39,234 nucleotides of DNA from Bacilli bacterium (GCA_017476885.1 JAFUYX010000049.1:1-39234), one strand, 5' to 3'; counted from the first letter of the stretch, positions 5,384 through 39,234 are shown. Notes: generated from the letters alone by a model not told the origin. Made by a program: numbers and translations.

Positions 5384-5471
5384 TTTTTTTAATAAATTTA
5401 TCATTTTTTTACAATAAATTGTCAAAAATATGATATGATATTAAAGAGAAGATTTGATTGGTGGTGCTAAT

Positions 5472-7037
5472 GTGAAAAAAATTGTCATACATATTCAAAA
5501 TAACATCTTATATTTTTCATATAAAAGCGGTAAATCAATCAGAGAAGATCTAATGAACACCAACATTATCTCTGATAGTGAAATTGTCTTCAGCGATGAT
5601 TACATCAATCAAAATAAAAACCTTGTAATTCCTTTTTTCAAAGAACTATGTGACATGAATCAAATTGACACCATAACATTTCAAAATAGTGAATTAGCAT
5701 TTTCTCTTATCGAGTTATTTAAAAATATCAAGATTCGTACCATAAAGATTAAAAAAGAAGAAACACTTCCCTATTCCTTATGTGAAAAAATCCCAGTTAT
5801 TAAAAGTGTAAAAGAACTTCACTGTTATAGCATTGCAAATTATCTACTTGACTACCTCGATAAATATAAAATAAAGGTACATAGTAATGCTGAGTTATTA
5901 ACAATTTCGAATTTTATGAGTCAAAACAATTTAAAAAGTTACACAGATATTTATTACAAAAAACAAATTACAATATATCAAAAATTAACAGAAGAAGACA
6001 AAGAAGACTTAACAAATTTTTTCAAACTCAATCATTACCTCCGAATGATTCATCTCCAAGTGCTTTACTTAGAAGACTTAAAATACATAGCAAGTTTATT
6101 AGAAAACTTTAGATTAAAAAGAATTATTATCAAACTATATGAGAACATTTCAAATTTAGAACAAGTAGAATATTTAAAAAATTTAAACAAAAAATTTAAA
6201 AAAGCAAAAATCTCAGTAGAATTAGTCTATTCGAAAGAATACATTGAAAATAATCTTATGAAACAAATTTCCCTAAATACTTTAAAACTATGCGGTGTTA
6301 TTCTAATTGCTATGATTGTTGGTACCATCTCTTATATTGCTTATGACAATTATAGTTCCTTACAAGAGGTTACAGCCATCCAAGAAGAAGTCCAAAAAAT
6401 CATTGCTAAAAATGAAGATGAGATAGAGATTCCTCCTATTAAAGAAGAACTAACCATTAAAAACAAATATATTGCTTCTCTTCTATCCATTAACCAAGAT
6501 GTTGTGGGCTATTTAAGAGTAAACAACACGAATGTTGATTATCCTGTAGTTTTAGGTCAAGACAACAAACACTACCTAGATAAAAACCTTTACAATCAAG
6601 AAGATAAAAATGGATGGATATTCATGGATTTTCGAAATTCCGATAAGATATTAAACGATAATACCATTATATATGGACACAACCGCTACTATAGTGATAT
6701 CATGTTTGGATCTTTAAAAAACATTATAAAGCCAGAATGGTACAATAATGAAGAAAACATGATTATTGAATTTGATACCATGTATGAATCTATGAAATGG
6801 AGAGTATTCTCTATTTATACACTTCCAAAAACAAGTGATTATCTAAAAGTGTCATTTAGTTCTCAAGAATCTAAAAAAGCCTATATAGATATGGTAAAAA
6901 ATAGAAGCGTGAAAGATTTTGGTACAGAAGTTACAACCGATGATATTTTCTTGACACTTTCAACCTGTAATAATTATGACAAAAGATTAGTATTACATGC
7001 TAAATTAATAAAAGAAGAACAGAACTCCAATTTATAA
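5472..7037 (+). CDS. Class B sortase with large cytoplasmic N-terminal domain
   Basis: This membrane transpeptidase cleaves a sorting motif and joins the protein to the cell wall. The C-terminal domain (from about residue 335) is class B sortase: VNNTNVDYPVVLG, catalytic His in YGHN (about 403), Cys in LSTCNN (about 499) and Arg in KRLVL (about 505). One membrane helix lies at about 271-291. Before it is an unusual cytoplasmic region of about 270 residues, rich in Ile, Leu and Lys with a faint repeat feel, that I do not recognise; ordinary SrtB is about 240-280 residues in all. GTG at 5472 is preferred, with GGTGG 7 nt upstream; TTG at 5454 is in frame. The neighbouring NPETG protein is its probable substrate. 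Confidence 0.9.
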   Translation: MKKIVIHIQNNILYFSYKSGKSIREDLMNTNIISDSEIVFSDDYINQNKNLVIPFFKELCDMNQIDTITFQNSELAFSLIELFKNIKIRTIKIKKEETLPYSLCEKIPVIKSVKELHCYSIANYLLDYLDKYKIKVHSNAELLTISNFMSQNNLKSYTDIYYKKQITIYQKLTEEDKEDLTNFFKLNHYLRMIHLQVLYLEDLKYIASLLENFRLKRIIIKLYENISNLEQVEYLKNLNKKFKKAKISVELVYSKEYIENNLMKQISLNTLKLCGVILIAMIVGTISYIAYDNYSSLQEVTAIQEEVQKIIAKNEDEIEIPPIKEELTIKNKYIASLLSINQDVVGYLRVNNTNVDYPVVLGQDNKHYLDKNLYNQEDKNGWIFMDFRNSDKILNDNTIIYGHNRYYSDIMFGSLKNIIKPEWYNNEENMIIEFDTMYESMKWRVFSIYTLPKTSDYLKVSFSSQESKKAYIDMVKNRSVKDFGTEVTTDDIFLTLSTCNNYDKRLVLHAKLIKEEQNSNL

Positions 7038-21753: not shown

Positions 21754-21780
21754 AAAAAAAAGAAGATCATAAATCTTCTT
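21754..21780 (-). terminator. Terminator of the VirD4-like operon
   Basis: AAGAAGAT/ATCTTCTT forms an 8-bp stem with a 5-nt loop and T-run on the minus strand. It reaches into the stop codon. Confidence 0.85.
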
Positions 21781-23932
21781 AAGAAAAGAAATCATCAAAG
21801 AATTCATCATCAGTAATAGTATTATCATTCATCACGACGGAATCTTTATCGATATGAATCTTTGGCTTTTCCTCTTCCACAACAACCTCTGGAATAGTAC
21901 TTTTTTCTTCAATAACCGTGTTTTCCTCTTTCTCTTTTTCTAACTTAGGCAATTCCATTTTTTCTTTGACCTCTTGCTGCTTTCTCTCGCGTTCTTCTTC
22001 CTCGTCAAGTTCTTTTAATTTCTTATCGATATCTGCAATCATCTGATCAATTTCATCACTAGAAAGACTAGAGATTGGTTTCTCTAAAGAAGGCCTATCC
22101 ATATTTGAAGAAGATGGTCTAGGTGAAATAGGAGGACCCATAAAAGGATTCATTCCCATTCCTCCCATAAACGGATTAAAAGAAGGAGTCATTTCACCAG
22201 GACCAGAATCTTCCATCATTTGTTTTCTTTTCGCTTCAGAAACAAAAGTTTTTAAATCAAAATAATGCAAAGTTCCTTTCTCTCTTTTAGGAAAATCAAA
22301 ATCTTTTCTTTCAATTCCCCAGTCCATTTTCATATCGGGAAATAATTTAGTTTTAAATGGATTCATTCGAAGCCTTCTAATAATCACTTCTCCCATTTTC
22401 ATTTTTTGTAAATCAGTCACAGTTACTAAAGGAGTCGAAGCAGTTTTATCTTTATCTTTACTTTTGACTTCTCCACACATTTTACTAATTTCTTCTAATG
22501 CTGCAATCTCAGTACTAATAAGATAAATCATATTACCACAGTTTCCTTTTAAAGTCTCAGCAATTTCTTTCCCATACACATCATTTAACTGGGCAAAGTT
22601 TTGAATAATAAAAGTAAATCTTATATCTCTTGAACGAGCAGCAGACACCATAGAATCAACATCTTGTAATGCCGGCATGTTCGCAAACTCATCTAATATA
22701 AAGTTGGTACGATATTTTAATTTCCCACCCCGTTCTTGGGCTACATCAATTAAAACTTCATAACATTGTTTTAAGAAAATTGTTAACAAACTATGATAGG
22801 TTGTTTTTTCATCATGAATAATTAAAAATACAGCCGTTTTCTTCTCTCCAATACTGGTCATATCAAAGTCGCTATAAGAAAGCATCTCAGCTAGGTTTTC
22901 TTGAGTTGCAAATTTCTGCATTTTACTTCGAAAAGTAGATTGAATACCTCCTTTAGTTTCTCCAGGAGCATTAATCGTTGCTGAAGCAAATACATATTCA
23001 CTCGTATTCTCACCCTTCATATTAAAGTATTCGTTGATATATCTAGAAGCCCCAAATCTCTGGTCTCCCACACTATCCATTAAGAAAATAGAACTAATAT
23101 TAACTTCTTCTTCTTTTCCATCTTCAAATAATCCAAGAGCAAGAGCACTAAAATAATCCGCGGCAGTGGACTCCCAGAACGCAGAATCTTTATTCTTAGG
23201 ATCGACTAAAATATTATTACCAATATCTTTTAATAATTCAATAGCTTTATCTTTATTTCCTTCTTTATAATAACGATAAGGCATAGCAAGTGGATTCCAT
23301 GAATTTCCACGATCAGGATTACGGAAATTTAAAACAATGATATTATAATCTTGATTTTTTAAATAATCACCACAGTATTTGTATAACTCACCTTTCGGGT
23401 CATTAATAATCATCGATTCCCCTTTTTTAGCAAGAGTATTTACAAGAGGTTTTACAACTGACTCGGATTTACCTGAACCAGTAGATCCAATTACTAAAGT
23501 ATGATAATCACTATTATCCACCCAAAGTTCTTTACCATTATTTATTAAAGGAACTCCAGCCCCTTCTACTTTTTGATCACTAGCAAGAATATGAACGACT
23601 CCTCTATCACTTTTCATCTCTTTATCTTTAGCCCATCTGGAATATCCTTTTTCATCTTTTTCACCAATATTTAAAAACTTATCTCCACTTTTATCTTTTT
23701 CAAAAATATAAGAAGATACACTTGAAAAGATAATAGCAATAGCTACACCAAACATAAATAAAGTCAATAAAAGATACTTTCCGCCAAACGCTGGAAAAGG
23801 ATTTAATCCAAAGAATGTACCATCATTGGCAAAAGATGAAAAGTTTAGTACCGCAATAGCACATAAGTATAATAAAAAAATACAAAATATCACAAAAATC
23901 ACAAAATCTTTTGAAGACACACGAAATTTCAT
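21779..23932 (-). CDS. VirD4/TraG-type coupling ATPase
   Basis: This membrane ATPase resembles the coupling proteins that feed substrates into type IV secretion systems. Two N-terminal helices (about 11-33 and 53-75) anchor a large cytoplasmic part. Walker A is GSTGSGKSES (about 151-160) and Walker B is FILDEFAN (about 413-420); DPKGELY, SAARSRDIRFTFIIQNFAQL and KGNCGNMIYL also fit the family. The last 150 residues are low complexity: Met/Pro/Gly-rich, then a charged coiled coil, then an acidic tail. ATG at 23932 (about 717 residues) follows AGAGGG. No relaxase, VirB4 or oriT is seen; its neighbours are a wall hydrolase and Tad pilus genes, so a role in conjugation is not supported here. Confidence 0.9.
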   Translation of the reverse strand: MKFRVSSKDFVIFVIFCIFLLYLCAIAVLNFSSFANDGTFFGLNPFPAFGGKYLLLTLFMFGVAIAIIFSSVSSYIFEKDKSGDKFLNIGEKDEKGYSRWAKDKEMKSDRGVVHILASDQKVEGAGVPLINNGKELWVDNSDYHTLVIGSTGSGKSESVVKPLVNTLAKKGESMIINDPKGELYKYCGDYLKNQDYNIIVLNFRNPDRGNSWNPLAMPYRYYKEGNKDKAIELLKDIGNNILVDPKNKDSAFWESTAADYFSALALGLFEDGKEEEVNISSIFLMDSVGDQRFGASRYINEYFNMKGENTSEYVFASATINAPGETKGGIQSTFRSKMQKFATQENLAEMLSYSDFDMTSIGEKKTAVFLIIHDEKTTYHSLLTIFLKQCYEVLIDVAQERGGKLKYRTNFILDEFANMPALQDVDSMVSAARSRDIRFTFIIQNFAQLNDVYGKEIAETLKGNCGNMIYLISTEIAALEEISKMCGEVKSKDKDKTASTPLVTVTDLQKMKMGEVIIRRLRMNPFKTKLFPDMKMDWGIERKDFDFPKREKGTLHYFDLKTFVSEAKRKQMMEDSGPGEMTPSFNPFMGGMGMNPFMGPPISPRPSSSNMDRPSLEKPISSLSSDEIDQMIADIDKKLKELDEEEERERKQQEVKEKMELPKLEKEKEENTVIEEKSTIPEVVVEEEKPKIHIDKDSVVMNDNTITDDEFFDDFFS

Positions 23933-23984
23933 AGACACTTCCCTCTCTAATAAGTATTATACAATAGATTCCACAAATTCTAAA

Positions 23985-24740
23985 CTATTTTTTTCGATTT
24001 TTAAAAAGAATAAGAATAGTAAGAACAACAAAAAATATTCCAAATGCAATAAGAAGAATCATAACTTTATGTTCATTTGCAAATTCAACAATTTGATTCT
24101 CTTGAGCAGGATTCTCTTCAATATTAGATTGAAAATCACTTAAATCAACAGGATTAGTATTAAAAACAAAAGAAATATACTTACTATTTTGATTATCCTT
24201 TGTAAAATACCAATAATAATGATTTCCTTTTACTTCATCTGCATTTGAAGAAATAACATTATAATCAGTTTTAACATCAATGGTTAAATCTTCAAGCAAA
24301 GAATACTTCTTATATGCTTTACAACCAGTACTCGTATTAATTCTATAAACAGTATCATTTTTCTGAACTGATATTTCATCAAAACATTCTTTAATCATTC
24401 TCGAGCGATAAATATTATAATAATCAAACTGATATGACGAAGTAAAACCCTCAAATTCACTATTCTTATAAGGCGCTATCTTATAATATTCTACCCCTTC
24501 ATTTTTTTCGCTACCAATTTCAACACCATCATTTTCATCAAAAAAAACAGGGACATATGATTGAGTATAAGAATTTAATATACGATTTAAATCCACATTT
24601 TGATACACCTCTGAAGAATTTTCTTTCGTATATACATGATTTACCTCTTCTACATTTTCATCTAAAGTTAATTCATAATGAACACTACAACCACATGTAA
24701 AAAATAACAAACAGATTACTAAAAAGAATATCCTTTTCAT
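23985..24740 (-). CDS. Lipoprotein-like protein with C-terminal membrane helix
   Basis: I do not recognise a named function. The 251-residue protein has an N-terminal signal sequence ending TCGC, a plausible but imperfect lipobox with Cys18, a beta-rich extracytoplasmic domain of about 200 residues with two further cysteines, a membrane helix at about 226-247 and a short basic tail (FKNRKK). A lipid anchor plus C-terminal helix recalls the LppM family layout, but that is only a topological resemblance. It lies between the wall hydrolase (15-nt gap) and the VirD4-like gene, so it is probably a membrane part of the same machine. Confidence 0.7.
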   Translation of the reverse strand: MKRIFFLVICLLFFTCGCSVHYELTLDENVEEVNHVYTKENSSEVYQNVDLNRILNSYTQSYVPVFFDENDGVEIGSEKNEGVEYYKIAPYKNSEFEGFTSSYQFDYYNIYRSRMIKECFDEISVQKNDTVYRINTSTGCKAYKKYSLLEDLTIDVKTDYNVISSNADEVKGNHYYWYFTKDNQNSKYISFVFNTNPVDLSDFQSNIEENPAQENQIVEFANEHKVMILLIAFGIFFVVLTILILFKNRKK

Positions 24741-24755
24741 AAATCAACCTTCCTT

Positions 24756-26942
24756 TTATAAATGACATTTTGAAGTATCTGATAGAATAGATAAATCTAA
24801 ATAGTCATAAGGGTCAACTAAATGATTACTAGAATCATAAATTGTAAAATGCAAGTGAGGTCCAGTAGCAGAACCTGTCATACCCACTTCCCCTATTTTT
24901 TCACCTTGTGAAACTTCTTGATCTTTAGAAACAATAATAGAATTATTAAGCATATGCATATAAACGGTTTTAGTTCCATCTTCATGACGTATTTTTACGT
25001 AATTTCCCATTGAACTATGATTAAATCCAACTTCAAAGACAGTACCGGCTTTGGAAGCATAAATATCTGTACCAGAAGCAACTCCTAAATCAAGGCCAGA
25101 ATGATCATGAACTATTCCTGTAATAGGATGAACTCTTGTTCCAAAAGGAGAAGTACAATGAAACTCAGAATTAGATGGCAAAGGAAGAGCAAATCCATCT
25201 TTTCCAACACTTGCACATTGAGCTTGCCTTTCCATGACTCCTTCTGAATTATAATTATCATAATCACTCGCATCACGATGATCATAGAACTTCCCTTGAT
25301 CGGTATAATCTCCTGTTACAAATAAAGCAAACTCTGCTTTCCTACGCTTCATAAGTCCTTCCAAAACGCTGCCATTAGATTTACGACAAGTTTTCCATTC
25401 ATTCCAAAGTCCTTCCAATCCACCAGTTGAATATGCAGCAAGAACTTTAGATGCCCATTCAGAGCCACAGTTATAATTTAAAGAAGTAATTGCGTCTTTT
25501 TGAAACTGAGTAAGAGTAAGACCATACTTTAAAGCAGCCACATCAACACTGGCAGCATAATCCTTTTCAACAGAATTACTTTTTAAAGCATCAATAACTT
25601 CAATTGGAACACAATCTCCAGGCTCTAAATCATACTGCCCTTTATTATTCACACGAAAATAGTTACCCCAACCATTTTGATCAATCAATTCCTTAGAATA
25701 GGTAGTATTAACAACATGTTCAGTCACACCATAACCGATAGTAAATCTTGCATTATCTTTCAGTTTCTTTGCATAATACCCCGTATTATTACTACAAAGT
25801 CCCTCGTGACCTTCCCAACCATTTAAGAATGTTTCAAAATTAGCATTAGAAGATGATGTATTACAATAAGAAGATTGACTTCCCGATTCATAGGCTAACG
25901 TAGTTCCCTCATCCGTATTATTTTTATCATTTAAGGTTTTAATATAGATATCTTCTCCATAATAAGTAGTGAGTATCTGTAAAAAATTAAGTCCTAAATC
26001 GTGCCAATAGTAATATGCACCATATAAGTTAAACCCTTGCTCTTCTTCCTGATGCAAGTACTCTTTCTTATAAATAATTTCGGTGTCAGTAGAAGTTGTT
26101 CCATCTTCATTTTGAGTTTCATGCTCAATTTCCTCTTCAAAATAAATCCAACACTGAGGATCCTCATCGTCAAAAGGTTCAGAAGATTCAATAATTCCAC
26201 TAGACTTATTGCATACACACTCATTATATACCCGATTTTTAACATATTCATTCGAAAAAGAATTAGGAATGAACAAATTATTATGAAAAAGAACATGTAC
26301 TGGTTCCTCTTCATGAATCTTACTCCAACAAAAACTAGAAGCATGCGTAGAAATGAGTTCATCATTAATATTTACGATAACTAAATTTTTTGCCTTATCG
26401 AGTCCTTTTTCTATCTCTTGATCAGTTTCATAACTAGCAAATAAGTCTTTATCATCATGATAAGTCACAGAATAATTATTAGTTAGTGCCTCATTTCGAA
26501 GTGCAATCGCTAAAGCCCAGTAAACATGATAATCAAATCGTGCTTCATTTTCTGCTTCAATACTTTTGATACCTTGAGAATAAGCATACACAGCCTTAGT
26601 AATATACTCTTCTAAATCCATCTGAGTTGTAGTTTCCTCTTCTTCTCCAAATTTTCGATAATGAATCGTTACTTTACGAGAAAGTAACTCTTTTCCATTC
26701 TTATAATACGTGTAGTCATGAACATCGGAACCTTCCATTACTACACTAATCAAAATTAAAAAGAATAAAACCACTAGTACAATCCCTATAATTAATATCT
26801 TTTTCTTCAAAAGAATTTCTAAGGCCTTTTTACTTGCTCTACCACTGGCATTAATATCCCCCTTAAAAGATTCTAAAGTAATATCTTTAGAAGAAGGCTC
26901 TGTAGTAGAATTATCAATCTCTTCATAATCTTGATTATCCAT
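24756..26942 (-). CDS. Trimodular wall hydrolase: SpoIID-like + GH24 lysozyme + M23 peptidase
   Basis: The protein has about 728 residues. After a 40-residue cytoplasmic part and one membrane helix (about 50-70) come three extracytoplasmic modules. The first (about 85-335) is SpoIID/LytB-like: MDLEEYITKAVYAY, ALAIALRNEAL, and the ending NLYGAYYYWHDLG...ILTTYYG. The second (about 365-545) is a phage-type GH24 lysozyme: EGHEGLC with the probable catalytic Glu, TIGYGVT, SLNYNCG and KRRKAEFALF. The third (about 580-710) is an M23 LytM peptidase with zinc ligands in HSGLDLG and HLHF. ATG at 26942 has AAGGCGGTGA upstream. It probably opens peptidoglycan for the secretion machine encoded around it. 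Confidence 0.92.
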   Translation of the reverse strand: MDNQDYEEIDNSTTEPSSKDITLESFKGDINASGRASKKALEILLKKKILIIGIVLVVLFFLILISVVMEGSDVHDYTYYKNGKELLSRKVTIHYRKFGEEEETTTQMDLEEYITKAVYAYSQGIKSIEAENEARFDYHVYWALAIALRNEALTNNYSVTYHDDKDLFASYETDQEIEKGLDKAKNLVIVNINDELISTHASSFCWSKIHEEEPVHVLFHNNLFIPNSFSNEYVKNRVYNECVCNKSSGIIESSEPFDDEDPQCWIYFEEEIEHETQNEDGTTSTDTEIIYKKEYLHQEEEQGFNLYGAYYYWHDLGLNFLQILTTYYGEDIYIKTLNDKNNTDEGTTLAYESGSQSSYCNTSSSNANFETFLNGWEGHEGLCSNNTGYYAKKLKDNARFTIGYGVTEHVVNTTYSKELIDQNGWGNYFRVNNKGQYDLEPGDCVPIEVIDALKSNSVEKDYAASVDVAALKYGLTLTQFQKDAITSLNYNCGSEWASKVLAAYSTGGLEGLWNEWKTCRKSNGSVLEGLMKRRKAEFALFVTGDYTDQGKFYDHRDASDYDNYNSEGVMERQAQCASVGKDGFALPLPSNSEFHCTSPFGTRVHPITGIVHDHSGLDLGVASGTDIYASKAGTVFEVGFNHSSMGNYVKIRHEDGTKTVYMHMLNNSIIVSKDQEVSQGEKIGEVGMTGSATGPHLHFTIYDSSNHLVDPYDYLDLSILSDTSKCHL

Positions 26943-26972
26943 ACTATTCACCGCCTTCTTTAATTCATACAT

Positions 26973-28112: not shown

Positions 28113-28589
28113 TTAACTTGCAAATGGTATATCTCCATCAATCGAATTTGTAATATCTACTGTAACACCTTCTGCTTCAAAGGTATACAAATGCCCAATC
28201 ACAGGCAAATCAAATCGAAAGAAAATCCTTACTCGATATTTTGCTCTATTTAATTTCGTCCCCGTTGCAGTAGGCAACTTTGAAACACAATAATAATACT
28301 TTTGCCCAGAAGTAGCATTTTTTAAAACATTACTTTTCAAATCTTGACTTCCCATTTCCCCAGAATAACAACTATTCATCGTAGTATATCCACTTGAAAG
28401 CAAATAATTATTAATGATTGAAACAGATTTTTTACTAAAACCTTCATACTTTTCCACAATACTTACAACATCATTTTTTATTTTAAAAGCTTTTGTATAA
28501 TTCATTGTTAAAGCCAGAAAAGCAACAAAAATAAGCATAAAAATAATGACCAACTGATAAACCCAAGTAGCACCTACCGTCTCTCTCAT
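28113..28589 (-). CDS. TadE-like pseudopilin 2
   Basis: This 158-residue protein has a six-residue leader METV-type start (MRETVG) directly followed by a membrane helix (WVYQLVIIFMLIFVAFLAL). A soluble domain follows with three cysteines and a C-terminal beta-rich stretch (YRVRIFFRFDLPVIGHLYTFEAEG). It is a paralogue of the upstream gene product; both end with a FxxDLPxxxxxxxF pattern. By analogy it is a minor pilin of the Tad system. AAAGGAG precedes the ATG. Confidence 0.72.
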   Translation of the reverse strand: MRETVGATWVYQLVIIFMLIFVAFLALTMNYTKAFKIKNDVVSIVEKYEGFSKKSVSIINNYLLSSGYTTMNSCYSGEMGSQDLKSNVLKNATSGQKYYYCVSKLPTATGTKLNRAKYRVRIFFRFDLPVIGHLYTFEAEGVTVDITNSIDGDIPFAS

Positions 28590-28605
28590 AATGCATTACT
28601 CCTTT

Positions 28606-29109
28606 CTAAGAAACTGCAAACGTTTTAGTATCTCCTGTAATTTTAAAATTAAATACATCATGGAAAAAAGGTAAATCTAACTGATAAAAAACAACGATAC
28701 GATAATAAAACATATTAGGAAGTTCAGTGTATTTATTGTCTAAACACCCATTTTTATTATCAACATAAACTGGTGCAACACAAAATACAGGACTATTTTT
28801 GTTATCTTCCTTTCCTTCACGATTATAACAACGATATCTACCATTGTTATTATTATTACTTGTACAACCAACTTTAATATCTGAAGGTTTAACACCAGAA
28901 GTCCTATATGCATTTGATTTCATATACTCTACAATATCAGGCATAGAAGCATTCAAATCACCATTATTGGATTGAATCGTTTCTAAAATAAAATTCTTTA
29001 CATTAAATGCCTTAGAACGATTAATAGACAAGCACATAAAACCTGTAAACAAAAGTATAAAAACTATGACAATTTGAAACAACCATGTTCCTCCTATCGA
29101 TTCTCTCAT
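28606..29109 (-). CDS. TadE-like pseudopilin 1
   Basis: This 167-residue paralogue of the next gene starts MRESIG followed by the helix TWLFQIVIVFILLFTGFMCL. The soluble part has several cysteines and the same ending pattern (YRIVVFYQLDLPFFHDVFNF). The Asn-rich stretch NNNNNG lies mid-protein. The start has ATAGGAGG. It is interpreted as a minor pilin because of the short Gly-ended leader, the helix and its place after two smaller pilins. Confidence 0.72.
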   Translation of the reverse strand: MRESIGGTWLFQIVIVFILLFTGFMCLSINRSKAFNVKNFILETIQSNNGDLNASMPDIVEYMKSNAYRTSGVKPSDIKVGCTSNNNNNGRYRCYNREGKEDNKNSPVFCVAPVYVDNKNGCLDNKYTELPNMFYYRIVVFYQLDLPFFHDVFNFKITGDTKTFAVS

Positions 29110-29121
29110 TAAAGCCTCCTA

Positions 29122-29379
29122 TTAACCTTTCCAAGTGCATTCAAATTCACTACCAGCTTTTTGTTTAGTTTTAGAGTCAATGACATAACAATCCGTACAA
29201 ACTCCTGATGTTTCCGGATTTCCTTTTTTACAAGGACAAATTGCTTTACTACAAGAAGAAGTTTTATTCATATTATCCTGAATCATTGGCCAAAACGTAA
29301 AAAAGAAAAAAGATACTAGTATCCCTATCATAACTACAACAATAACCGTTACATTTAGCTCACCAGTAGCTTCTTTCAT
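29122..29379 (-). CDS. Flp-like prepilin 2, Cys-rich
   Basis: This 85-residue protein begins MKEATG, followed by ELNVTVIVVVMIGILVSFFFFTFWP, a class-III-like prepilin layout with the hydrophobic segment right after the leader. The exposed part of about 50 residues holds six cysteines. It is a paralogue of the preceding gene product. The inner string NPETS is not a sorting signal because no hydrophobic tail follows. Confidence 0.75.
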   Translation of the reverse strand: MKEATGELNVTVIVVVMIGILVSFFFFTFWPMIQDNMNKTSSCSKAICPCKKGNPETSGVCTDCYVIDSKTKQKAGSEFECTWKG

Positions 29380-29398
29380 TTAATTACCTCCATTTTAA

Positions 29399-29692
29399 CT
29401 ATTTAACATTACAATTTGCTTTTTTTATTTCAACTGCTCCAGAACCATCGCCTTTATCAGCAGTATACTCACATGTATACTTACCACCATTAGCCTGTCC
29501 ACATTTAATATAACCAGGTTTAGAGCGATTAGTTTCAGCAGATGTATAGTTTTGACCATTAGCACAAACAGTATTTGCTGAAATACTATCTTTGATTCCA
29601 GGCCAGATAAATGCGTAGAAGAACGCACCTACTGCTACAATTGCAACAACTGTAACAACAGTCATATTTAATTCACCTGTTGCTTCTTTCAT
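29399..29692 (-). CDS. Flp-like prepilin 1, probable major pilin
   Basis: This 97-residue protein has the MKEATG leader and the helix segment ELNMTVVTVVAIVAVGAFF, then a soluble part with four cysteines. It is the first gene after a near-perfect promoter and has a strong GGAGG site, so it is the best candidate for the abundant subunit. A peptidase cutting after Gly6 would yield a mature pilin starting with Glu; no such peptidase is encoded in the window. Confidence 0.77.
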   Translation of the reverse strand: MKEATGELNMTVVTVVAIVAVGAFFYAFIWPGIKDSISANTVCANGQNYTSAETNRSKPGYIKCGQANGGKYTCEYTADKGDGSGAVEIKKANCNVK

Positions 29693-29763: not shown

Positions 29764-30552
29764 TTACATTCCCATTAACATGAGTACTGATAAAACAAGT
29801 AAAACCATAACTCCTAAACCAGTAGTAATAAGCATTTGAGTTGTTTTACCTTCCATTTTTTCTAAACGATGTTTATATTTAATCTCTCTTGCTTTTTGAG
29901 TTAAATTAGAGATTGTTCTTGAAAACGCAAGTAATTGTTCTTGTTTATGTTCCTGACTTCCAAGAGATAAACGATATAAAAGCCTCATCATACGCATAGA
30001 ATCACGAACTGGATACATCTTTGCAAAATTCATATATGGAGTGATAGTATCATCTCCATCATTAATTTGGTTAATCATCTCCTGTAGTCCTTCCCTAAAT
30101 ATCGGTGGAGCATCATTAATAGACCTACCAAGTGCCACTGGAACAGTATAATGTTGAATTAAAATTTCCAAACTTTTCAAATAATGAGGGAGCATTGAAT
30201 CGATCTCAGTCAAATGTGCTTTATAATATTTTTTAATATTTGAATAATCCATCTTAAACACTAAAAAGCCAACAATTAAACTAGCAAGAAAAGAAATATA
30301 AGACAAATTTGATACAAAGAAAGCTAATAAAATAACAATTGTAAGAAGCCCATTCTTTACTCGTTTATTAAACAAGAAATCAGGATTAGCACCATCGCCA
30401 TATTTTGCCTTAACATAAAAATCCCAATCACTTTCCTTAAATCTTCGAAATAACACCTCATTATCAGAAACAAACTTTGTCGCACTAATACGACCAGTAT
30501 AATTTAACATAAATAGAAGTAAAAGCGCTAAAACAAATATTTCCCAATACAT
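29764..30552 (-). CDS. tadC: TadC-like inner-membrane assembly protein
   Basis: This is a type II secretion F domain protein of 262 residues. An N-terminal helix, two central helices (about 68-100), a cytoplasmic helical F domain with LPHYLKSLEILIQHYTVPVALG, and a C-terminal helix (TGLGVMVLLVLSVLMLM) match TadC. With TadB it forms the membrane platform that the TadA ATPase drives. It overlaps tadB by 1 bp (TAATG). Confidence 0.85.
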   Translation of the reverse strand: MYWEIFVLALLLLFMLNYTGRISATKFVSDNEVLFRRFKESDWDFYVKAKYGDGANPDFLFNKRVKNGLLTIVILLAFFVSNLSYISFLASLIVGFLVFKMDYSNIKKYYKAHLTEIDSMLPHYLKSLEILIQHYTVPVALGRSINDAPPIFREGLQEMINQINDGDDTITPYMNFAKMYPVRDSMRMMRLLYRLSLGSQEHKQEQLLAFSRTISNLTQKAREIKYKHRLEKMEGKTTQMLITTGLGVMVLLVLSVLMLMGM

Positions 30553-31448
30553 TATTCCACCCCCACATCTTCATAGTAGAATTTCTCTCCGCCAATTAAG
30601 AAAAACGCATTAAATACGATGATTGCGTGTAAAATAAGTTGTACATACCACATTTCCAAAAGTTCAATATAAGAATCTGTGCCAAGCAAAAACTGCATAA
30701 CCATAACAAGTAAAAATAATGCCATCCCAAAAGTCAAAAATCTTTTATGAAACTCATTTCGATCAATTTGATCTCGATAAACACCTTCTACCAAGGCATC
30801 AATATCCATAGACATATTTTCTAGTGCTTGTCCAGAATCCTTAGCACCTTCTTTAGTGATTTGTAAAAATAATTGATGCATATTTTTAACCATGTAAAAT
30901 GGATATTTTCGATTAAAAAATTCAATGGATTCATCAATCGTACCATTCTGATAAGACATATCAATCATAGTAGAAATATCAGTTAAAATAGGATCTTCAA
31001 TAATCCCAGAATCACGAACACCTTCCAAAGATTTTACAAAACTCTGTGTGGTATTAAACTCCATAATAACATTGGTTGTATAAGTTTGAATCTGTTCAAA
31101 AATAAATTCACTATAAACTTTTTGACAACGAAGATAGGCCAAATAAGGAATAAAAGCAACAGCAATAGCAGCATAAATCAAAGATATCAATAGATTATAA
31201 AAATAAAGATAAGTAATTCCACCCGCAACAACAGCAAACAAAATTACTTGAGCAATATATTGCTTTACAGTATATTCCTGACCTAATTCCTTTGTTTTTT
31301 TTCGAACTTCTTTAAAACTATAAGGAGCATACTTATCATAAGCACCCGACACTTGATTTATAAAGAATCGATAGACATTCTCACCATTATTAAACCAATA
31401 AGAAAGTCCAAAAATAGCAATAACCAATAAAATGATTAACTCAATCAT
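30552..31448 (-). CDS. tadB: TadB-like inner-membrane assembly protein
   Basis: This is an F-domain protein of 298 residues with an N-terminal helix, a helix pair near 70-105, the cytoplasmic F domain (IQTYTTNVIMEFNTTQSFVKSLEGV and GAKDSGQALENMSMDID) and C-terminal helices. It is the partner of TadC in the Tad platform. AAAGGGG precedes the ATG, 21 nt after tadA. Confidence 0.85.
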   Translation of the reverse strand: MIELIILLVIAIFGLSYWFNNGENVYRFFINQVSGAYDKYAPYSFKEVRKKTKELGQEYTVKQYIAQVILFAVVAGGITYLYFYNLLISLIYAAIAVAFIPYLAYLRCQKVYSEFIFEQIQTYTTNVIMEFNTTQSFVKSLEGVRDSGIIEDPILTDISTMIDMSYQNGTIDESIEFFNRKYPFYMVKNMHQLFLQITKEGAKDSGQALENMSMDIDALVEGVYRDQIDRNEFHKRFLTFGMALFLLVMVMQFLLGTDSYIELLEMWYVQLILHAIIVFNAFFLIGGEKFYYEDVGVE

Positions 31449-31469
31449 AATCTGCCCCTTTCTTTACTT

Positions 31470-32636
31470 TTATAACGTTTCAATTACAGGTGTATTATTT
31501 ACCTGAGATGAAGTTATTGACGCAACAGGTTGAGACTGAACTTCTACATTAGAATTAGTAGAAACACTCGACTCTTTTTTACCAGGATTAAAAATATCTT
31601 CAGGAAGAGTTACTCCTCCAATACTTAAATAATCCCTTAAATTCTTTGTTGGTTGATTCATCGTCATTTGACCTGTTAAATTCTTTTTAAAAATAGTATT
31701 TACTTGAGCTTTATTATTTTCATCAACATAGAATTCACATATTTCCATAATTTCACGTTGAAATCTTCCGAGTTCTTTACTCATATAACCTTTAACATAA
31801 ATTCCGATTTGAACATAACGATGTATTGTAGTTAAAAACTGTTCAACATCAATATTACTTTCAATCAAAGCAAACATACGCATTGGAATCAAACTAGCTT
31901 TATCAGAGTGAATCGTAGATAAAATATGGTGTCCAGAAGAAATCGAGTTACGAACAGCCATAACCGCTTCAGCACTACGAACCTCAGAAAGTAATATCCA
32001 AATTGGGTTTTGTCTCATACATGCCACTAAAACATCAGAATAACTAGCAATATTATTTGTTTTTAAAGCAACAATATCACGATGTGGAAAAATACGATCT
32101 AAGTGTAACTCAAGTGTATCTTCGATAGTAATAATCTTTTCGTTTTCTTTAATATGCGACGCCAGATACTTAACCAACTCTGTTTTACCAGAACCAGTCT
32201 CTCCACTAACAATAATATTTGCATGCCCTTCAATACATTGAATCAAAAAATCATGCAAAGACTCTGTAATATATTTTTCATTAATTAACTTTTCTTTATT
32301 TAATCGTATTTTAGCAGGAGTCTTACGAATAAGACAACTAATTCCATTCGTTGAAATAGAATCGTGAATAAAATTCATACGTAATTCTGCGCTTTCTGCA
32401 TCGAGCATTGGATGTGCCATATTAAAAGTTTTTCCCATAACATTAGCACATTGAAACGCCAATTTTTCCATTAAAGGATTATTAATCTGAGGGCGATTAA
32501 CTTGATAAACACCTTTATCTAAAGTTTTTAACCATACTTGGCCACCATTACTATAAGAAATATCAGTAACATTATCATCTTGTAAAAATTCCTCTAACGG
32601 ACCAAAATCTAATTGTGAAAAAATAGCATCATTCAC
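31470..32636 (-). CDS. tadA: TadA/CpaF-type secretion ATPase
   Basis: This hexameric ATPase powers pilus assembly. In 388 residues it shows Walker A SGETGSGKTEL (about 144-154), an Asp box TIEDTLELHL (170-179), a Walker B region WILLSEVRSAEA (213-224; the usual VGEVRGxEA has become LSEVRSAEA) and a His box GHHILSTIHSD. The N-terminal domain (DNVTDISYSNGGQVWL) is also typical. The last 40 residues are a Ser/Val/Gln-rich tail. The start is GTG at 32636 after AAAGGGGATGAT; no in-frame ATG is near. Confidence 0.93.
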   Translation of the reverse strand: MNDAIFSQLDFGPLEEFLQDDNVTDISYSNGGQVWLKTLDKGVYQVNRPQINNPLMEKLAFQCANVMGKTFNMAHPMLDAESAELRMNFIHDSISTNGISCLIRKTPAKIRLNKEKLINEKYITESLHDFLIQCIEGHANIIVSGETGSGKTELVKYLASHIKENEKIITIEDTLELHLDRIFPHRDIVALKTNNIASYSDVLVACMRQNPIWILLSEVRSAEAVMAVRNSISSGHHILSTIHSDKASLIPMRMFALIESNIDVEQFLTTIHRYVQIGIYVKGYMSKELGRFQREIMEICEFYVDENNKAQVNTIFKKNLTGQMTMNQPTKNLRDYLSIGGVTLPEDIFNPGKKESSVSTNSNVEVQSQPVASITSSQVNNTPVIETL

Positions 32637-32654: not shown

Positions 32655-33464
32655 TTATTCTCCAGTATCAGAAACGGCTGAATAATAGTTTTCTTCTCCT
32701 GGAAGAATGACTACATGTGGTAATATATACTCTTCTACAATATATGTACCTTCAACACGAGTAGATCCTGGATTAGTAGTGTAATTATTATTATGTGGAA
32801 CAGGAATCAATTCACCAAATTGCTCAGCCCTTACTAGCAAAGCATACAAATTATCTGGAACAGCAAATAAAAGTACTGCAGGAACTCCATCTCTAGAATT
32901 TTCGATAGAAACTCCTTCTCCATCACGAACATCTAACACACGAATAGCTTGGACTAAATTTCCATAGATAACTTTGTCATTTTCAGAATCAGTCCCTTGA
33001 AAATATAAATCAATATAGTTTCCTCTTTTGATTTGACCACCATACGTAGATAAAATATTAACAGGTAAAGAAAATGCTGTATATCCATCTTGAATATCAC
33101 TTAAAACAAAATCTGGTGAATAAGAAGGTTCTGTTAAATCTTCTTGATAAAACAAACCATGTTCAGGTATTTTATTACCATAAGTCACTTCTTTACCAAT
33201 AATTAAAGTGACATCCTGAATAAGATTATCAGCACTAGCAGCAATATCATTATTGATTTGAATATATTCAATATCTTCTGCTGTAATAACATGCCGTGCA
33301 GGCAGTGCAACTTTTGCACTTGGAACAGTAACAGGACTAACTTGTGCACGAACTCGAGAATTATATCCAATCCATAACACCGTAAAACCAGCAATCAAAC
33401 ATAAAATTGCCACAGTAGTACGATTACTAATAAATCTTTGTAATTTCACTATCATTGTCTGCAT
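32655..33464 (-). CDS. cpaB: CpaB/RcpC-like SAF-domain protein 2
   Basis: A membrane helix (about 18-38) is followed by a SAF domain (VPSAKVALPARHVITAEDIEYIQIN) and a beta-rich RcpC region (YIDLYFQGTD, VIYGNLVQAIRVLDV, LLFAVPDNLYALL). CpaB proteins belong to the Tad envelope complex. The frame opens at 33542 but that part overlaps the upstream gene; ATG at 33464 or 33473 is more likely, though no site is strong. It is a tandem paralogue of the preceding gene product. Confidence 0.83.
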   Translation of the reverse strand: MQTMIVKLQRFISNRTTVAILCLIAGFTVLWIGYNSRVRAQVSPVTVPSAKVALPARHVITAEDIEYIQINNDIAASADNLIQDVTLIIGKEVTYGNKIPEHGLFYQEDLTEPSYSPDFVLSDIQDGYTAFSLPVNILSTYGGQIKRGNYIDLYFQGTDSENDKVIYGNLVQAIRVLDVRDGEGVSIENSRDGVPAVLLFAVPDNLYALLVRAEQFGELIPVPHNNNYTTNPGSTRVEGTYIVEEYILPHVVILPGEENYYSAVSDTGE

Positions 33465-33465
33465 A

Positions 33466-34278
33466 TTAATCATTCTCACTTTCAACATTTCCAGAAGATA
33501 CATTACTAGGAACATATGCAGCCTTCGATAATATAAAATCATCTAAATAAGAATTTGCAATTTTGGTTGCTTCTGGATGCTCAGTAAAACTACGATTTCG
33601 TGGAACTGGGACAATTCTTCCAACCTTTAGGGCTGTATCAATTTTAAGTCGCATATCAGCAGGCACCCCAAATAAAAGTTGAGATGGTTCCCTAGCCTCT
33701 GAACCTGATTCAAATACAGAAGATCCCATATCATCTTGTACGTCTAATACTTTAATGCTACTAATGTATTTACCATAAATAAAGTTTCCTGAACTATCTT
33801 CTCCCTCAAACCATAAATCAATGTAATTCCCAGGATAAATTGCATTACCAAATGTAGAATTCAAATCCACACTTAAATAAATAGGGGTATATCCATTTTC
33901 AAGATTTCCAATAATATCAGAAGCCATAGCATTAGTTTTAGAATCAGCAACCGAATCTTCAAAAAAGAAACTATTTTTTTGAATGGTATTACCATATGCA
34001 ACCTCTTGACCAATTATAAGACCTGAATCTTTAATAATTCCTTCCATGTTGTTTAAAACACCACCAGCAACTTCTATAAAACTAACATCATCACTAGTAA
34101 TAACATGTCTAGATGGTAAAGTAGCCGTAGCATAAGGAATCATAATTGGTTCTGTAGCAAGCGAAACAATATGATTATAAACAAAATAAAGAGCAAAAAT
34201 ACCTATAAGTACAATAAGTATCGTTACGGTATTTTTGTTCTTTGTAATTTCTTTTATTTTACCTAATATATTTCCCAT
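33466..34278 (-). CDS. cpaB: CpaB/RcpC-like SAF-domain protein 1
   Basis: This 270-residue paralogue has a helix at about 18-40, a SAF domain (IPYATATLPSRHVITSDDVSFIEV) and the RcpC region (YIDLWFEGED, FIYGKYISSIKVLDV, LLFGVPADMRLKI). TTGGAGGAATAAAT precedes the ATG. The two copies are clearly related along their length but diverged, which argues for distinct jobs rather than a recent duplication. Confidence 0.83.
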   Translation of the reverse strand: MGNILGKIKEITKNKNTVTILIVLIGIFALYFVYNHIVSLATEPIMIPYATATLPSRHVITSDDVSFIEVAGGVLNNMEGIIKDSGLIIGQEVAYGNTIQKNSFFFEDSVADSKTNAMASDIIGNLENGYTPIYLSVDLNSTFGNAIYPGNYIDLWFEGEDSSGNFIYGKYISSIKVLDVQDDMGSSVFESGSEAREPSQLLFGVPADMRLKIDTALKVGRIVPVPRNRSFTEHPEATKIANSYLDDFILSKAAYVPSNVSSGNVESEND

Positions 34279-34576: not shown

Positions 34577-35062
34577 TTAACTAGATTTAGCAGCAGATTT
34601 AGAACCACTTCCTACTGCAGCAGTAGTAATTGAATTATCTTGCTTATCTGCAGTTAAAGCAGCACCATCAGTTTCTAAAATAGCATCAATTCGATTCGTA
34701 ATATCAAATGATGAATCACTAGCAGCAATATTATAAGTAGCACTTTTTGTTGTAACTTTAACACTAACTTTTGGAGGTGCCTCATAAAGTCCATAAAAAT
34801 CAACTTGATAATCACTTAAAGCGACATTTTCAGCAAACCTTCTTAAAAAATTTTCAACAAACATCTCTTTATTAATACGAAGTTCTCTACTTTGACGGTA
34901 ATATGCTAAATCTACAGCATCAACTAAAGATGCTTCAGTAACTTCTTTAATCAAATAATAATCTTGAGTACTCGTATTGGTTACATTAGAAACTAGTAAC
35001 ATAATTACAATTACAAAAACTCCTAATAGTATTAACCAATATCCCCAATAAGATTGATTCAT
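34577..35062 (-). CDS. Pilin-like small membrane protein
   Basis: This 161-residue protein starts MNQSYWG followed by the helix YWLILLGVFVIVIMLLVSNV, then a soluble domain (LVDAVDLAYYRQ, FVENFLRRFAENVAL, APPKVSVKV). From memory it resembles proteins grouped as DUF5411, but I cannot check this. The short Gly-ended leader before a helix is like that of the TadE-like proteins in the cluster, so it may be another minor pilin. It is unlike them in lacking cysteine. AAGGAGGGG precedes the ATG. It starts 14 nt after the giant gene. Confidence 0.7.
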   Translation of the reverse strand: MNQSYWGYWLILLGVFVIVIMLLVSNVTNTSTQDYYLIKEVTEASLVDAVDLAYYRQSRELRINKEMFVENFLRRFAENVALSDYQVDFYGLYEAPPKVSVKVTTKSATYNIAASDSSFDITNRIDAILETDGAALTADKQDNSITTAAVGSGSKSAAKSS

Positions 35063-35076
35063 ATACTATCCCCTCC

Positions 35077-38000
35077 TTATTTCCATGATGGACCTATAGC
35101 ATTTTCACGTGTAATACATTTATTATTAGCACAAGTCTTTTGTAAATCAGGATCAACACTAACCAAATCAGTAAACAAAATAAAGCGTTGATTCTTTTCA
35201 GGACGAATACTACTAATAGCAAATTTATGAGAAGAATCATTTTCAATAACATCTAAGAATGCACTATTACATTTAACACTATAGTCAATACCATTAATAC
35301 TCATATTAGAGCAATAAATAGCACTATTTTTTGGTGTAGTAGTATTATTCGACATATTTTCATATTTACTTGGAATCGTTGAATTTGCAAATGTTCCAAC
35401 CTCACCATTATAACCTTTAATATTCTTTAAATTCATGGCAGACAAAGTATAAGAATACTCAGGAGTTACATAACTTTCATCGCCACCTTGCAATTTTATA
35501 GAACCACGATTATATCCATTTTCAATAATCTTACGAGTTAGTGAACCTTTGTAATCATTAGTCCAGTTATAACCTTCATCAGAATTTTTAGAACGTTCAT
35601 TAGGGAACAAAGTACTTAAAGAAACAGGCCTGAAACTGTACGTAAAGTTTTCTCCATCAAAGATACAATCTCTACATGTGAATGTACAATTTCCATCTTC
35701 ACATTCTTCAAAATAACACTTTCCATCAGGATCACACTTAAATTTACAATGATCATCACAGTTCGTTAGATAATGACAAACATATCCAACTTGTTGTTGC
35801 ATCGTAGAAATACTACACTTTTTATACTCGCCACTATTAACTTTACGAGTATATTCCGTTAATACAGATTTAGTAGAACCAGTATTAATAATTCTTCCAA
35901 GTGAATTATCCTGATTTGATTGTCCAACTTTATTATAAGAAAGTACAAAAGGGAAGACACCCGTTTTAGTCAATAATGATACAGGAATAGAGTCCTTAGG
36001 TAAATTAGTATATAAGCAATCATTTCCATTACAAGCTGCACTCTTAAATTGTACTGTACCATATTGAGAACGAACAGATAAATCATTATTTGGTTCATAA
36101 TGAGCACTTTGAACCTTCGTCTTTCTAATCCAATTTGATTTACCAACTTGAATTACATTAGAAACACAGCTAGAATCATCACAATAAATAATATTTGTTC
36201 CCACTATCGCATTGGAAGAAGAATTTGCACTCCCACCACTGATACATTTATATGTAGAATCCGTATCACCAAAACAATATTCTTCAGTAGTCTGAATACC
36301 ATCATAATTTGCATCTAACAAAGTATTAAAATCCTTAATATAGTCTTCTTTGTAATTCATGTACACTTCTGGTCCATCAGAATTCCAATTAACCATTTTA
36401 TTATCCCAACCAGTAACATTTACAGAAGTATCATTTGGATTATTAACATTACCAGTACAACTATTATACAAGCGAATATTATTTTTAATGTCTTTCAAAT
36501 TATCTTCATAAGCTTTCTTATACTTATCAACATTTGGTTGAACCCTGCCCCTTACAACATCAGCTGAACCATCACGACAAGTTCCATCAGAACCACATGA
36601 GGAAGCATCAATAGCTTCTCCATCTGGACTAACGATGTTCTCAGATTGACTGGAAGAGCCAATAGAAATATGAGAAATTGTTCCATCAGCATTATAAATC
36701 GCAGTATAAGTAGAATAAGTATATGAAGGAACATAATAGATAGTAGCGCTACATGAAACATAAGAATCACAACCACAATCACCACCATCTTCAACTTTTG
36801 TTAAATTAATGTTCATATTAGGTGTAGTTTCAATAAAACGCGTCACAGCCGCTGACTCATCTATAGTCAAATTAGCAGTACCTACCGCAGCAGCTGCATC
36901 ATCATCGTCATCATCATCTTCTCCTCCACAAGGGTAAGATTCAGTTAAACCATCAGCAGATTCAGATTTACTAGTTATACTGTTTAATGCTGTTTTCCAA
37001 CGAACATACTCAGTATAATTTCTTAACATTTCGTCAGTTAATTCACGAATCTTATTCCTGAATTTTACAGTATCAATTCCTTTAGAAGGATCATCATGCC
37101 CACTAACATAACAATCTCTAGTTCCTTCGATACTAGCATCGATTGTAAAATAACTTCCACTATTGGTAGTACGTGCTGTAGGAACATTAAATTTATAAGA
37201 TTCTTTACACCAAACTTGGCAGTATGGATTGTCTCCAGATATTCCACTTGTTGATGTAGCATTATAAGAATTACCTGCCGCATCACTGCGATTAATAACA
37301 CAAGATTTAATTTGATCTTTTGGAGATTCGTTCTGACAAGAATATCTACCAGCAGACGTTTGAGAAATATCACTAATTACACCATTAACTTGAGAATCCA
37401 AATTATCAAAATTATTACATGTAGCAGGCATATACACATTTGGAGTACAATCTACACAATATTGATTATAATCTTGACACTCAGGATCACTTGGATTTTG
37501 ATTATCCTTACACTTATCTTCCCATTCATCACATTTCTGACAATCTTTTATATATTCTTCTTTACTACACTCTTTTCCGTCCCCAGCTCCTGGAGTAGAT
37601 TCTTTACAATAATATTTTCCATCTCCACTTTCACTTGGATTTTGACAAGAATGTTGACATTCTTTCTTAAACTCTTCCTCTGTACAAACTTCACCATTTT
37701 TACAATGAGGTTTTCCGCTATCATCTCTATAGCAAGTATTTTTCTTTTCACAAGTTCCAGGGCAAGTCACATCGGAACCAGCAGCCTTTTTAGCTTCTTC
37801 TAAAGTACTATAAGTTGTAGTAGTTTTATTCTTAGTAACTTTGTATAAACCAGTTGTAGTATCACAAATACAAGAAGGACCAGAAGTAATATGGATAGAA
37901 GGTCTGCCTGGACGACGAACAGAATTAGTAAACTCCTGTTCACTTACAGGACAAGAGCCATCCATAATAACAAGCATTCTTTGGATTCCAGAACGAGTAG

Positions 38001-38880
38001 GACTAACTAAGAACACTTGCATAGCAGCATCTTGAGGATCACAATATGCTGGAGTCACTTCAATACCATAATCAGTTCCAGTATATCCATTCAACTTTTC
38101 AACAGTCATATCAATTTGTACTCCAGCTGCACCATTATAAGCACCCGCAGAAGACATTGTACATTTAACATTAGTATTAGTACATTTAGCAGTAAAATTA
38201 TTATAATAAACTAAAGCAGGAACAGTACCATTCACAGAATTCAATACAAACGTAACCTTACTAGTATTTGTTCCAGTAGAAGTCTCAGTGTAACTAGCCG
38301 TTCCCCACTGAACGCCCCAAACAGAACCTTGGGATACCAATTCATCATAGGAAAGTGCAGAAGCATTCACAGCCTCTGTATAGATGCGTTTTGCTTCTGC
38401 AACTTCAGCATCAGAGTTGCTAAACTGATTTAAATCCGCATAATTAACCCCTTCAAAACTAACAGGATTTGATGCATAAGGAGAAGTGTTAATAATCCAT
38501 CGAAATAGTAATTCTTGAACTTTACGGCTACTTCCTTGGCTAGCTTTATATGCATAAGCAATCCTTTTATAAGTCGAAGAATTATAATCCTTACTCAAAT
38601 TAACAGTTAAATTATAATCTTGCCTAGTTTCTTTTAAACCAGTCCCCCATGGTCTACGAGGATCTGCACAATAAGTAGTATTAATTTCTTTACCATCTAT
38701 CACTGCCGTATAATAATTAATTGTTATACGCTTACCTTTTGACGTTAAGAAGGAATCAGCGTTATGATCACTAGCCCTTCTATAAACTTGAATCGATGCT
38801 GCTTTAGTAGATTGCATAAAAGCAATCATCATCAAAAACAGCAAAATAATTTCATAAAAAACTTTTCTTCCTTTTTTCAT
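35077..38880 (-). CDS. Giant Cys-rich secreted protein with possible thioester domain
   Basis: The protein has 1267 residues. A signal peptide (about 1-28) leads to a region resembling thioester domains of Gram-positive adhesins: Cys71 in TTYCADP and Gln122 in KVQELLFRW could form the internal bond. Residues about 337-488 are extremely Cys-rich and hold short modules ending EEEFKKEC and KEEYIKDC. A run of Asp then Ala lies near 660-675, and a second dense Cys cluster (CKFKCDPDGKCYFEECEDGNC) lies near 1060. The C-terminus has no sorting signal or helix, so the protein is released or held by partners. It overlaps the upstream gene by ATGA. Function as adhesin or pilus-tip protein is inference. 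Confidence 0.8.
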   Translation of the reverse strand: MKKGRKVFYEIILLFLMMIAFMQSTKAASIQVYRRASDHNADSFLTSKGKRITINYYTAVIDGKEINTTYCADPRRPWGTGLKETRQDYNLTVNLSKDYNSSTYKRIAYAYKASQGSSRKVQELLFRWIINTSPYASNPVSFEGVNYADLNQFSNSDAEVAEAKRIYTEAVNASALSYDELVSQGSVWGVQWGTASYTETSTGTNTSKVTFVLNSVNGTVPALVYYNNFTAKCTNTNVKCTMSSAGAYNGAAGVQIDMTVEKLNGYTGTDYGIEVTPAYCDPQDAAMQVFLVSPTRSGIQRMLVIMDGSCPVSEQEFTNSVRRPGRPSIHITSGPSCICDTTTGLYKVTKNKTTTTYSTLEEAKKAAGSDVTCPGTCEKKNTCYRDDSGKPHCKNGEVCTEEEFKKECQHSCQNPSESGDGKYYCKESTPGAGDGKECSKEEYIKDCQKCDEWEDKCKDNQNPSDPECQDYNQYCVDCTPNVYMPATCNNFDNLDSQVNGVISDISQTSAGRYSCQNESPKDQIKSCVINRSDAAGNSYNATSTSGISGDNPYCQVWCKESYKFNVPTARTTNSGSYFTIDASIEGTRDCYVSGHDDPSKGIDTVKFRNKIRELTDEMLRNYTEYVRWKTALNSITSKSESADGLTESYPCGGEDDDDDDDAAAAVGTANLTIDESAAVTRFIETTPNMNINLTKVEDGGDCGCDSYVSCSATIYYVPSYTYSTYTAIYNADGTISHISIGSSSQSENIVSPDGEAIDASSCGSDGTCRDGSADVVRGRVQPNVDKYKKAYEDNLKDIKNNIRLYNSCTGNVNNPNDTSVNVTGWDNKMVNWNSDGPEVYMNYKEDYIKDFNTLLDANYDGIQTTEEYCFGDTDSTYKCISGGSANSSSNAIVGTNIIYCDDSSCVSNVIQVGKSNWIRKTKVQSAHYEPNNDLSVRSQYGTVQFKSAACNGNDCLYTNLPKDSIPVSLLTKTGVFPFVLSYNKVGQSNQDNSLGRIINTGSTKSVLTEYTRKVNSGEYKKCSISTMQQQVGYVCHYLTNCDDHCKFKCDPDGKCYFEECEDGNCTFTCRDCIFDGENFTYSFRPVSLSTLFPNERSKNSDEGYNWTNDYKGSLTRKIIENGYNRGSIKLQGGDESYVTPEYSYTLSAMNLKNIKGYNGEVGTFANSTIPSKYENMSNNTTTPKNSAIYCSNMSINGIDYSVKCNSAFLDVIENDSSHKFAISSIRPEKNQRFILFTDLVSVDPDLQKTCANNKCITRENAIGPSWK
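36897..36921 (-). repeat. Asp-codon trinucleotide run inside the giant gene
   Basis: GAT/GAC triplets encode a run of seven Asp followed by Ala codons. Slippage here would change length in frame only. Confidence 0.7.
37417..37872 (-). repeat. Cys-bounded repeat modules in the giant protein
   Basis: Three or more degenerate modules of about 26-30 residues have the pattern aromatic/Tyr, Gly, then T/S-x-E-E-[F/Y]-x-K-x-C. A matching single module ends the ectodomain of the NPETG protein (YDKAC, about 158-182), 33 kb away. Confidence 0.6.
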
Positions 38881-39234
38881 TTTATTGTACTCCTTTGTGT
38901 TTTTCTAACAATCACATAAGTAACAACCCCTATTATTACTATAACAACAAAGCCTATCAATAGATATATCCCATATAACTCAAAAAATGACTTTTCTGAA
39001 CTCGTATTAGAAGATGACTCTTGAGGATTTTGTTTCTGTTCAAATCTCTTAATGGCATCTTCTGTAGAAAGACTAAAATCCAAAGTCGTAAGTGCTTGGC
39101 AATAATATTCGCTAGAATTTTCGCATGCAGCATATTCAGATAACACATTATACCTAGGTGTTTCAAGTTTAATTGAACGCAATGCTTCAGCTTTACAACT
39201 AGAATCAAGAGCATATACCTCTAAAGTATAAGTC
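38877..39234 (-). CDS. C-terminal part of an extracellular membrane protein (5' truncated by window)
   Basis: The frame is open to the right edge, so only the last 118 or so codons are present; TTG at 39182 is not a real start. The visible part has an extracellular stretch (YTLEVYALDSSCKAEALRSI, then AACENSSEYYCQALTT) with cysteines, a Ser/Gln/Glu linker, a membrane helix (YLLIGFVVIVIIGVVTYVIV) and a short basic tail. It is the gene before the giant protein in the operon and overlaps it by 4 bp, so the two products probably act together at the surface. Confidence 0.8.
   Translation of the reverse strand, partial: TYTLEVYALDSSCKAEALRSIKLETPRYNVLSEYAACENSSEYYCQALTTLDFSLSTEDAIKRFEQKQNPQESSSNTSSEKSFFELYGIYLLIGFVVIVIIGVVTYVIVRKTQRSTIK

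Follow-up and report, generated by a model that had tools for sequence, protein, structure and literature searches.

A divergent Class II-like thioester domain predicted in a giant Cys-rich secreted protein encoded with a Tad-like pilus operon in Bacilli

Does the giant secreted protein encoded at this locus carry a thioester domain, and if so, which residues could form the bond and how could the protein be held at the cell? The window analysed here is a stretch of 39,234 nucleotides from a Bacilli bacterium (GCA_017476885.1 JAFUYX010000049.1:1-39234), in which the giant, its partner and the Tad-like operon all lie on the minus strand. An open reading frame with homologues within the genus and the order was identified at 35077..38880, encoding a secreted protein of 1267 aa with 55 Cys in total. 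Residues 1-27 (38800..38880) were assigned to a signal peptide, based on a hydrophobic segment at residues 4-30 and an invariant Ala27. A sequence-only reading had noticed Cys71 in YCADP and Gln122 in VQELLFRW of this 1267-residue protein, all of which are present in the window, and had placed both residues where a thioester domain would need them. It had also described the giant as lacking a membrane or wall anchor of its own, which was borne out, since neither an LPxTG-like motif nor a hydrophobic stretch other than the signal peptide was found in the window giant. No isopeptide or ester domain was matched by Pfam in the giant, and none of the Pfam and NCBIfam models matched the window protein. 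The same scan of its homologues gave nothing consistent across members, with scattered SMC-type matches in single giants that fit coiled coil.

Homologues of the giant were observed in 27 of 37 genomes of the same genus, which we take to belong to order RF39; a sample of 288 genomes from the order yielded them in 134, spread over 45 of 102 genera. In a class-wide sample of 395 genomes no giant was seen outside the same family. The isolate names of many same-genus genomes suggest rabbit and chicken gut metagenomes. One relative of 1539 residues (L171:3389-8008) has, ahead of the thioester-like domain, a stretch similar to a D-Ala-D-Ala carboxypeptidase, with the VanY/M15-like motifs SKHNLGVALD and EWWH. 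In addition, class I thioester proteins (PF08341) with ATQxxIW intact are encoded as separate proteins in many same-genus genomes (L021-L038), whereas a search of the window's own genome gave no PF08341 protein.

For the comparison of N-domains, 42 were combined with 22 from about 15 further genera of the order into a set of 64; the 42 closest mostly shared 16-31% identity with the window copy. Only three columns were invariant in all 64 domains, namely Cys71 (38668..38670; distant sequences had been trimmed around their Cys motif prior to alignment, which partly guided this column there but not the Gln column), Arg127 (38500..38502) and Gln300 in IQRML (37981..37983). With so strong a divergence, the conservation of just these three residues goes beyond chance. 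Arg127 lies in or beside the alpha2 helix and is a possible pocket residue. Pro74 was a further invariant residue in the 42 N-domains, and Cys71 and Gln300 were also invariant in separate alignments of 24 and 42 members. Class II domains have a Cys motif of [YFL]C followed by a hydrophobic and a hydrophilic residue, and a weak Gln motif of the form hydrophobic-Q-hydrophilic-hydrophobic-hydrophobic. The Cys motif, YCAD in the window, was [YFLI]C followed by a hydrophobic residue in 60/64 N-domains, and the Gln with its three next positions fit the Class II pattern in 58/64, with the preceding position variable. The number of Cys per N-domain was even in 41 of the 64 and odd in 23.

Cys71 could thus be kept as the predicted thioester Cys, as first proposed, but the proposed Gln could not. 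Among 30 genus members Cys71 was invariant, while Gln122 (38515..38517) was seen in the window protein alone, and it occurred in 1/64 of the whole set. In bacterial thioester domains the Cys and the Gln are the only universally conserved residues, and in the solved ones the bond Gln lies on the last strand, not in a helix (PMC6194298), so Gln122 is not at the expected position. The frequent Gln of AYQ (position 112) was also considered as the bond partner and rejected, since several members have K, T, E, N or Y at this position. The pair supported by these alignments is a predicted one, Cys71-Gln300.

The TQxxPhiW helix motif packs on the bond in known thioester domains; located in alpha2, it is common in Class II domains and reported to be inessential for the bond. 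It was present in 0/64 N-domains and was not visible either in the pLS20-type domains aligned here, so the motif was not treated as defining.

A Class II-like thioester domain was assigned to residues 28-312 (37945..38799) from an AlphaFold model, its best PDB match and a profile match to Class II domains. The model, built from the 42-member alignment, had a pLDDT of 89.8 and a pTM of 0.85, and contained three strands of which the third ends at Cys71, then another strand, helices, an inserted beta-sandwich of six strands (N-domain residues 164-249) and two last strands. Gln300 was located just ahead of the last strand, which begins two residues past the Gln. Class II thioester domains have their Cys on strand C, a sandwich inserted between alpha3 and strand P, and their Gln on strand Q (PMC6194298); the order of strands and helices in the model matches this description, which supports a Class II-like topology. 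In a Foldseek search 6FWY ranked 1 of 350,542 PDB chains (E 8.1e-6, probability 1.00), though with a TM-score of only 0.41. The other listed matches were MHC class I chains, which were set aside with TM-scores of about 0.13-0.21. The comparison with thioester-domain structures that the sequence-only reading had proposed therefore came out in favour of such a fold, with a Class II domain as the best match of residues 28-312. It had been proposed for residues 29-200, which exclude Gln300 and most of the beta-sandwich, so that a construct of this length would give a false negative.

The Class II reference set for the profile comparison had 10 domains; plasmids of Bacillus, Virgibacillus, Carnobacterium and Terribacillus supplied nine of them, and a genome from the same bacterial class supplied the tenth. 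The adhesin p34 of pLS20 has the thioester pair Cys68-Gln256, and its C68S mutant is inactive (PMC8092201). Since p34 was not found in the stretches of NC_015148 examined, the pLS20-type member was drawn from related Bacillus plasmid records; its invariant Cys and Gln are 188 residues apart, the same spacing as reported for Cys68-Gln256. When the 64-member profile was aligned with the Class II set by hhalign, the whole domain was covered with probability 81 and score 43, Cys71 being paired with Cys68 and Gln300 with Gln256 of the pLS20 adhesin. The giants' Gln motif is Q[RK][MF]L, against YQRLM in the pLS20-type adhesin. As controls, the reversed profile gave probability 0.1 and score 12.5, and 60 column shuffles gave at most probability 1.4 and score 20.5. 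The 42-member genus profile alone reached probability 6, with a match around the Gln, and it was the addition of the 22 distant members that raised it to 81. Against class I domains the giant N-domain profile reached probability 5; a comparison with class I thioester proteins from this genus was set aside, as it matched the Cys motif only. Neither of the Pfam thioester models PF08341 and PF20610 detected the giant, and no thioester domain was found by hmmsearch of the N-domain profile against PDB sequences. Taken together, fold, profile and invariant residues give good support to a thioester-domain fold in residues 28-312, so the N-terminal domain that had been proposed stands and the Gln named with it falls.

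Beyond the N-domain, the alignments of homologues revealed a Cys-rich middle at residues 337-590 (37111..37872) with many invariant Cys. It is followed by two long helices predicted by AlphaFold (604-634 and 773-809; 36454..37071), which flank a variable segment and may form a stalk; the model of residues 396-1267 had a pLDDT of 68. The C-terminal part, residues 810-1267 (35080..36453), was highly conserved, and a fold search with it gave no PDB match. It ends with GPSWK (35080..35094). Of 61 complete homologues, 47 had GP[SA][WYM]K at the end or at most 8 residues from it (46 of them at the very end), and 10 more had GPSWR close to the end. In the 8 genomes searched, the codon pattern for a GPSWK-type tail plus stop occurred solely at the ends of giants, and this GPSWK/GPSWR-type tail is a possible docking or export signal. 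The N-domain was less conserved than the remainder of the giant, which fits a binding head with diverse targets at the N-terminus and a docking base behind it.

The gene had been described as overlapping that of an anchored protein and leading a pilus operon. The overlap was confirmed: the start of the giant gene and the stop of the gene upstream share 4 nt (ATGA, 38877-38880), and this upstream gene (38877..39233 for the C-terminal 118 aa, with its 5' end beyond the window) encodes a partner with a transmembrane helix near the C-terminus, then a basic tail. The link to a Tad-like operon was found to be conserved, while the first place in it belongs to the anchored partner, with the giant second. 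Downstream of the giant are DUF5411, a pilin-like membrane protein (34577..35062; PF17424, E 1.8e-54), two CpaB/RcpC-like genes (32655..34278; PF16976, E 1.5e-8 and 0.012), the TadA ATPase (PF00437, E 1e-26) with TadB/TadC-like membrane proteins assigned by position, length and synteny (29764..32636), and two Flp-pilin-like and two pseudopilin-like genes recognized by N-terminal hydrophobic helices and synteny (28113..29692). TadA is thus found together with TadB/TadC, CpaB and Flp-type pilins in conserved gene order, as in a Tad locus, and the window's genome encodes a prepilin peptidase at another site. The Flp-like pilins (window 29122-29692) start with MKEATGELN, and their leader is very short, if any.

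Among the loci read, the partner was directly upstream in 48/51 giants and Tad genes were within 6 kb downstream in 42/51; the order partner-giant-DUF5411-CpaB-TadABC was kept across about 15 genera. The other 9/51 giants were without Tad genes within 6 kb downstream (in some of them the contig or the sequence read ends first), so the giants may not always depend on a link to the pilus. Extra partner-giant pairs were present in some genomes. In L061 four such pairs stand in tandem, and the 19.9 kb examined there contain no Tad genes; this looks like an amplified adhesin cassette. Near the Tad operon of the window (21779-26972) there are a VirD4/TraG-like coupling protein (PF02534) and a two-domain phage-lysozyme/M23 hydrolase, resembling parts of Gram-positive type IV secretion. 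At 5454-7037 a protein of 527 residues has a C-terminal sortase domain (PF04203), and the window's genome has five sortase matches.

These results make it quite probable that the giant is a secreted adhesin with a divergent Class II thioester head, a putative Cys71-Gln300 bond, a stalk, and docking to the surface or to a Tad-like pilus through its C-terminus and partner. From the computed fold class and the invariant Cys, Gln and Arg we infer that Cys71 and Gln300 would be joined by an internal thioester, ammonia being released. An amine of a target protein, e.g. lysine, could then attack the thioester and leave a lasting isopeptide bond, and such an attack leading to covalent binding is established for SfbI (PMC4450167, PMC6194298). 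A stalk hardened by disulfides would be provided by the Cys-rich middle and the helical segment. Docking to the cell surface or to the Tad-like pilus would fall to the conserved C-terminal half with its GPSWK end and to the anchored partner translated along with the giant. The synteny and the absence of a sortase signal are computed results; the docking, suggested by gene order alone, would take the place of the usual sortase anchor, and the adhesive role and the target are likewise proposals.

A thioester between Cys71 and Gln122 is almost certainly not formed: both residues exist in the window protein, but the Gln is missing from 63 of the 64 homologues and lies in a helix region, whereas solved domains take the bond Gln from their last strand. 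Once Gln122 proved not to be conserved, the initial reading was a domain without any thioester, and this was dropped on the invariance of Gln300 and on the last-strand Gln of the Class II literature. A domain of the thioester fold that no longer forms the bond, in which Cys71 and Gln300 would serve folding or non-covalent binding, is given a small chance, because TQxxPhiW is lost and the invariant Arg127 has arisen near the site of the helix motif; a purely structural role, however, must keep exactly a Cys and a Gln while nearly all else changes.

The abundance of Cys (55, mostly conserved) would suit a disulfide-rich structural or enzymatic surface protein with no adhesive role and with Cys71 in a disulfide. 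This is very improbable, as the equivalent of Cys71 is the lone Cys of the N-domain in at least two members, leaving no in-domain disulfide partner there, and as fold and profile point to thioester domains. A real thioester could instead serve assembly, joining the giant covalently to the anchored partner or to pilus subunits rather than to a host or bacterial target. The partner directly upstream of nearly all giants, and duplicated along with them, speaks for this; the lower conservation of the N-domain fits diverse targets at the N-terminus with docking at the C-terminus, and to our knowledge thioester domains act on external targets, so we regard it as improbable.

If the reading as a thioester adhesin is true, a thioester domain of a Tad-like operon joins covalent adhesion to a pilus machine in many genera of uncultured gut Bacilli, giving a testable mechanism of colonisation for a poorly understood bacterial group. 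The thioester domain family would also be widened to members without the helix motif, which are missed by present Pfam models. It is a speculative idea, and one we think rather doubtful, that in Tad-type pili of these uncultured gut Bacilli the giant is a tip protein acting as an irreversible covalent thioester harpoon, maybe retracted by the pilus motor, with swappable partner-giant cassettes for different targets.

The thioester adhesins known so far are typically stalk proteins anchored by sortase or pilins that sortase assembles. The giant N-domain has its best fold match in 6FWY, the Class II domain of E. faecium TIE86, and shares with 6FWY, BaTIE and SaTIE the strand and helix order, the beta-sandwich insert, the Cys ending the third strand and the Gln on the last strand, with a Cys-Gln spacing of 229 in the window giant against 171-204 in those domains (PMC6194298). 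Unlike TIE86, BaTIE and SaTIE, the giant lacks isopeptide and ester domains, a sortase signal and TQxxPhiW; it is Cys-rich, tied to a Tad-like operon, and too divergent in sequence for the Pfam models. With pLS20 p34 it has a whole-domain profile match and similar motifs (YCIDP and YQRLM in p34), but p34 continues from the thioester domain into CnaB-type domains and acts in conjugation (PMC8092201), whereas the giants have a Cys-rich body and a Tad-like operon. The Cys motif YCIEP of the same-genus class I thioester proteins (PF08341) resembles the giants' YC[ILM][DS]P, yet those are separate proteins that keep ATQxxIW in the helix, and the giants are without TQxxPhiW. As in Tad/Flp pili, TadA, TadB, TadC, CpaB/RcpC, Flp-like and pseudopilin-like genes stand in one operon at the giant locus. 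In the open-access literature (subscription papers and preprints were outside the search) no report was found of a thioester domain tied to Tad or type IV pili. In kind the N-domain of the giant is a known domain, though a divergent one; the protein that carries it and its genetic setting are new.
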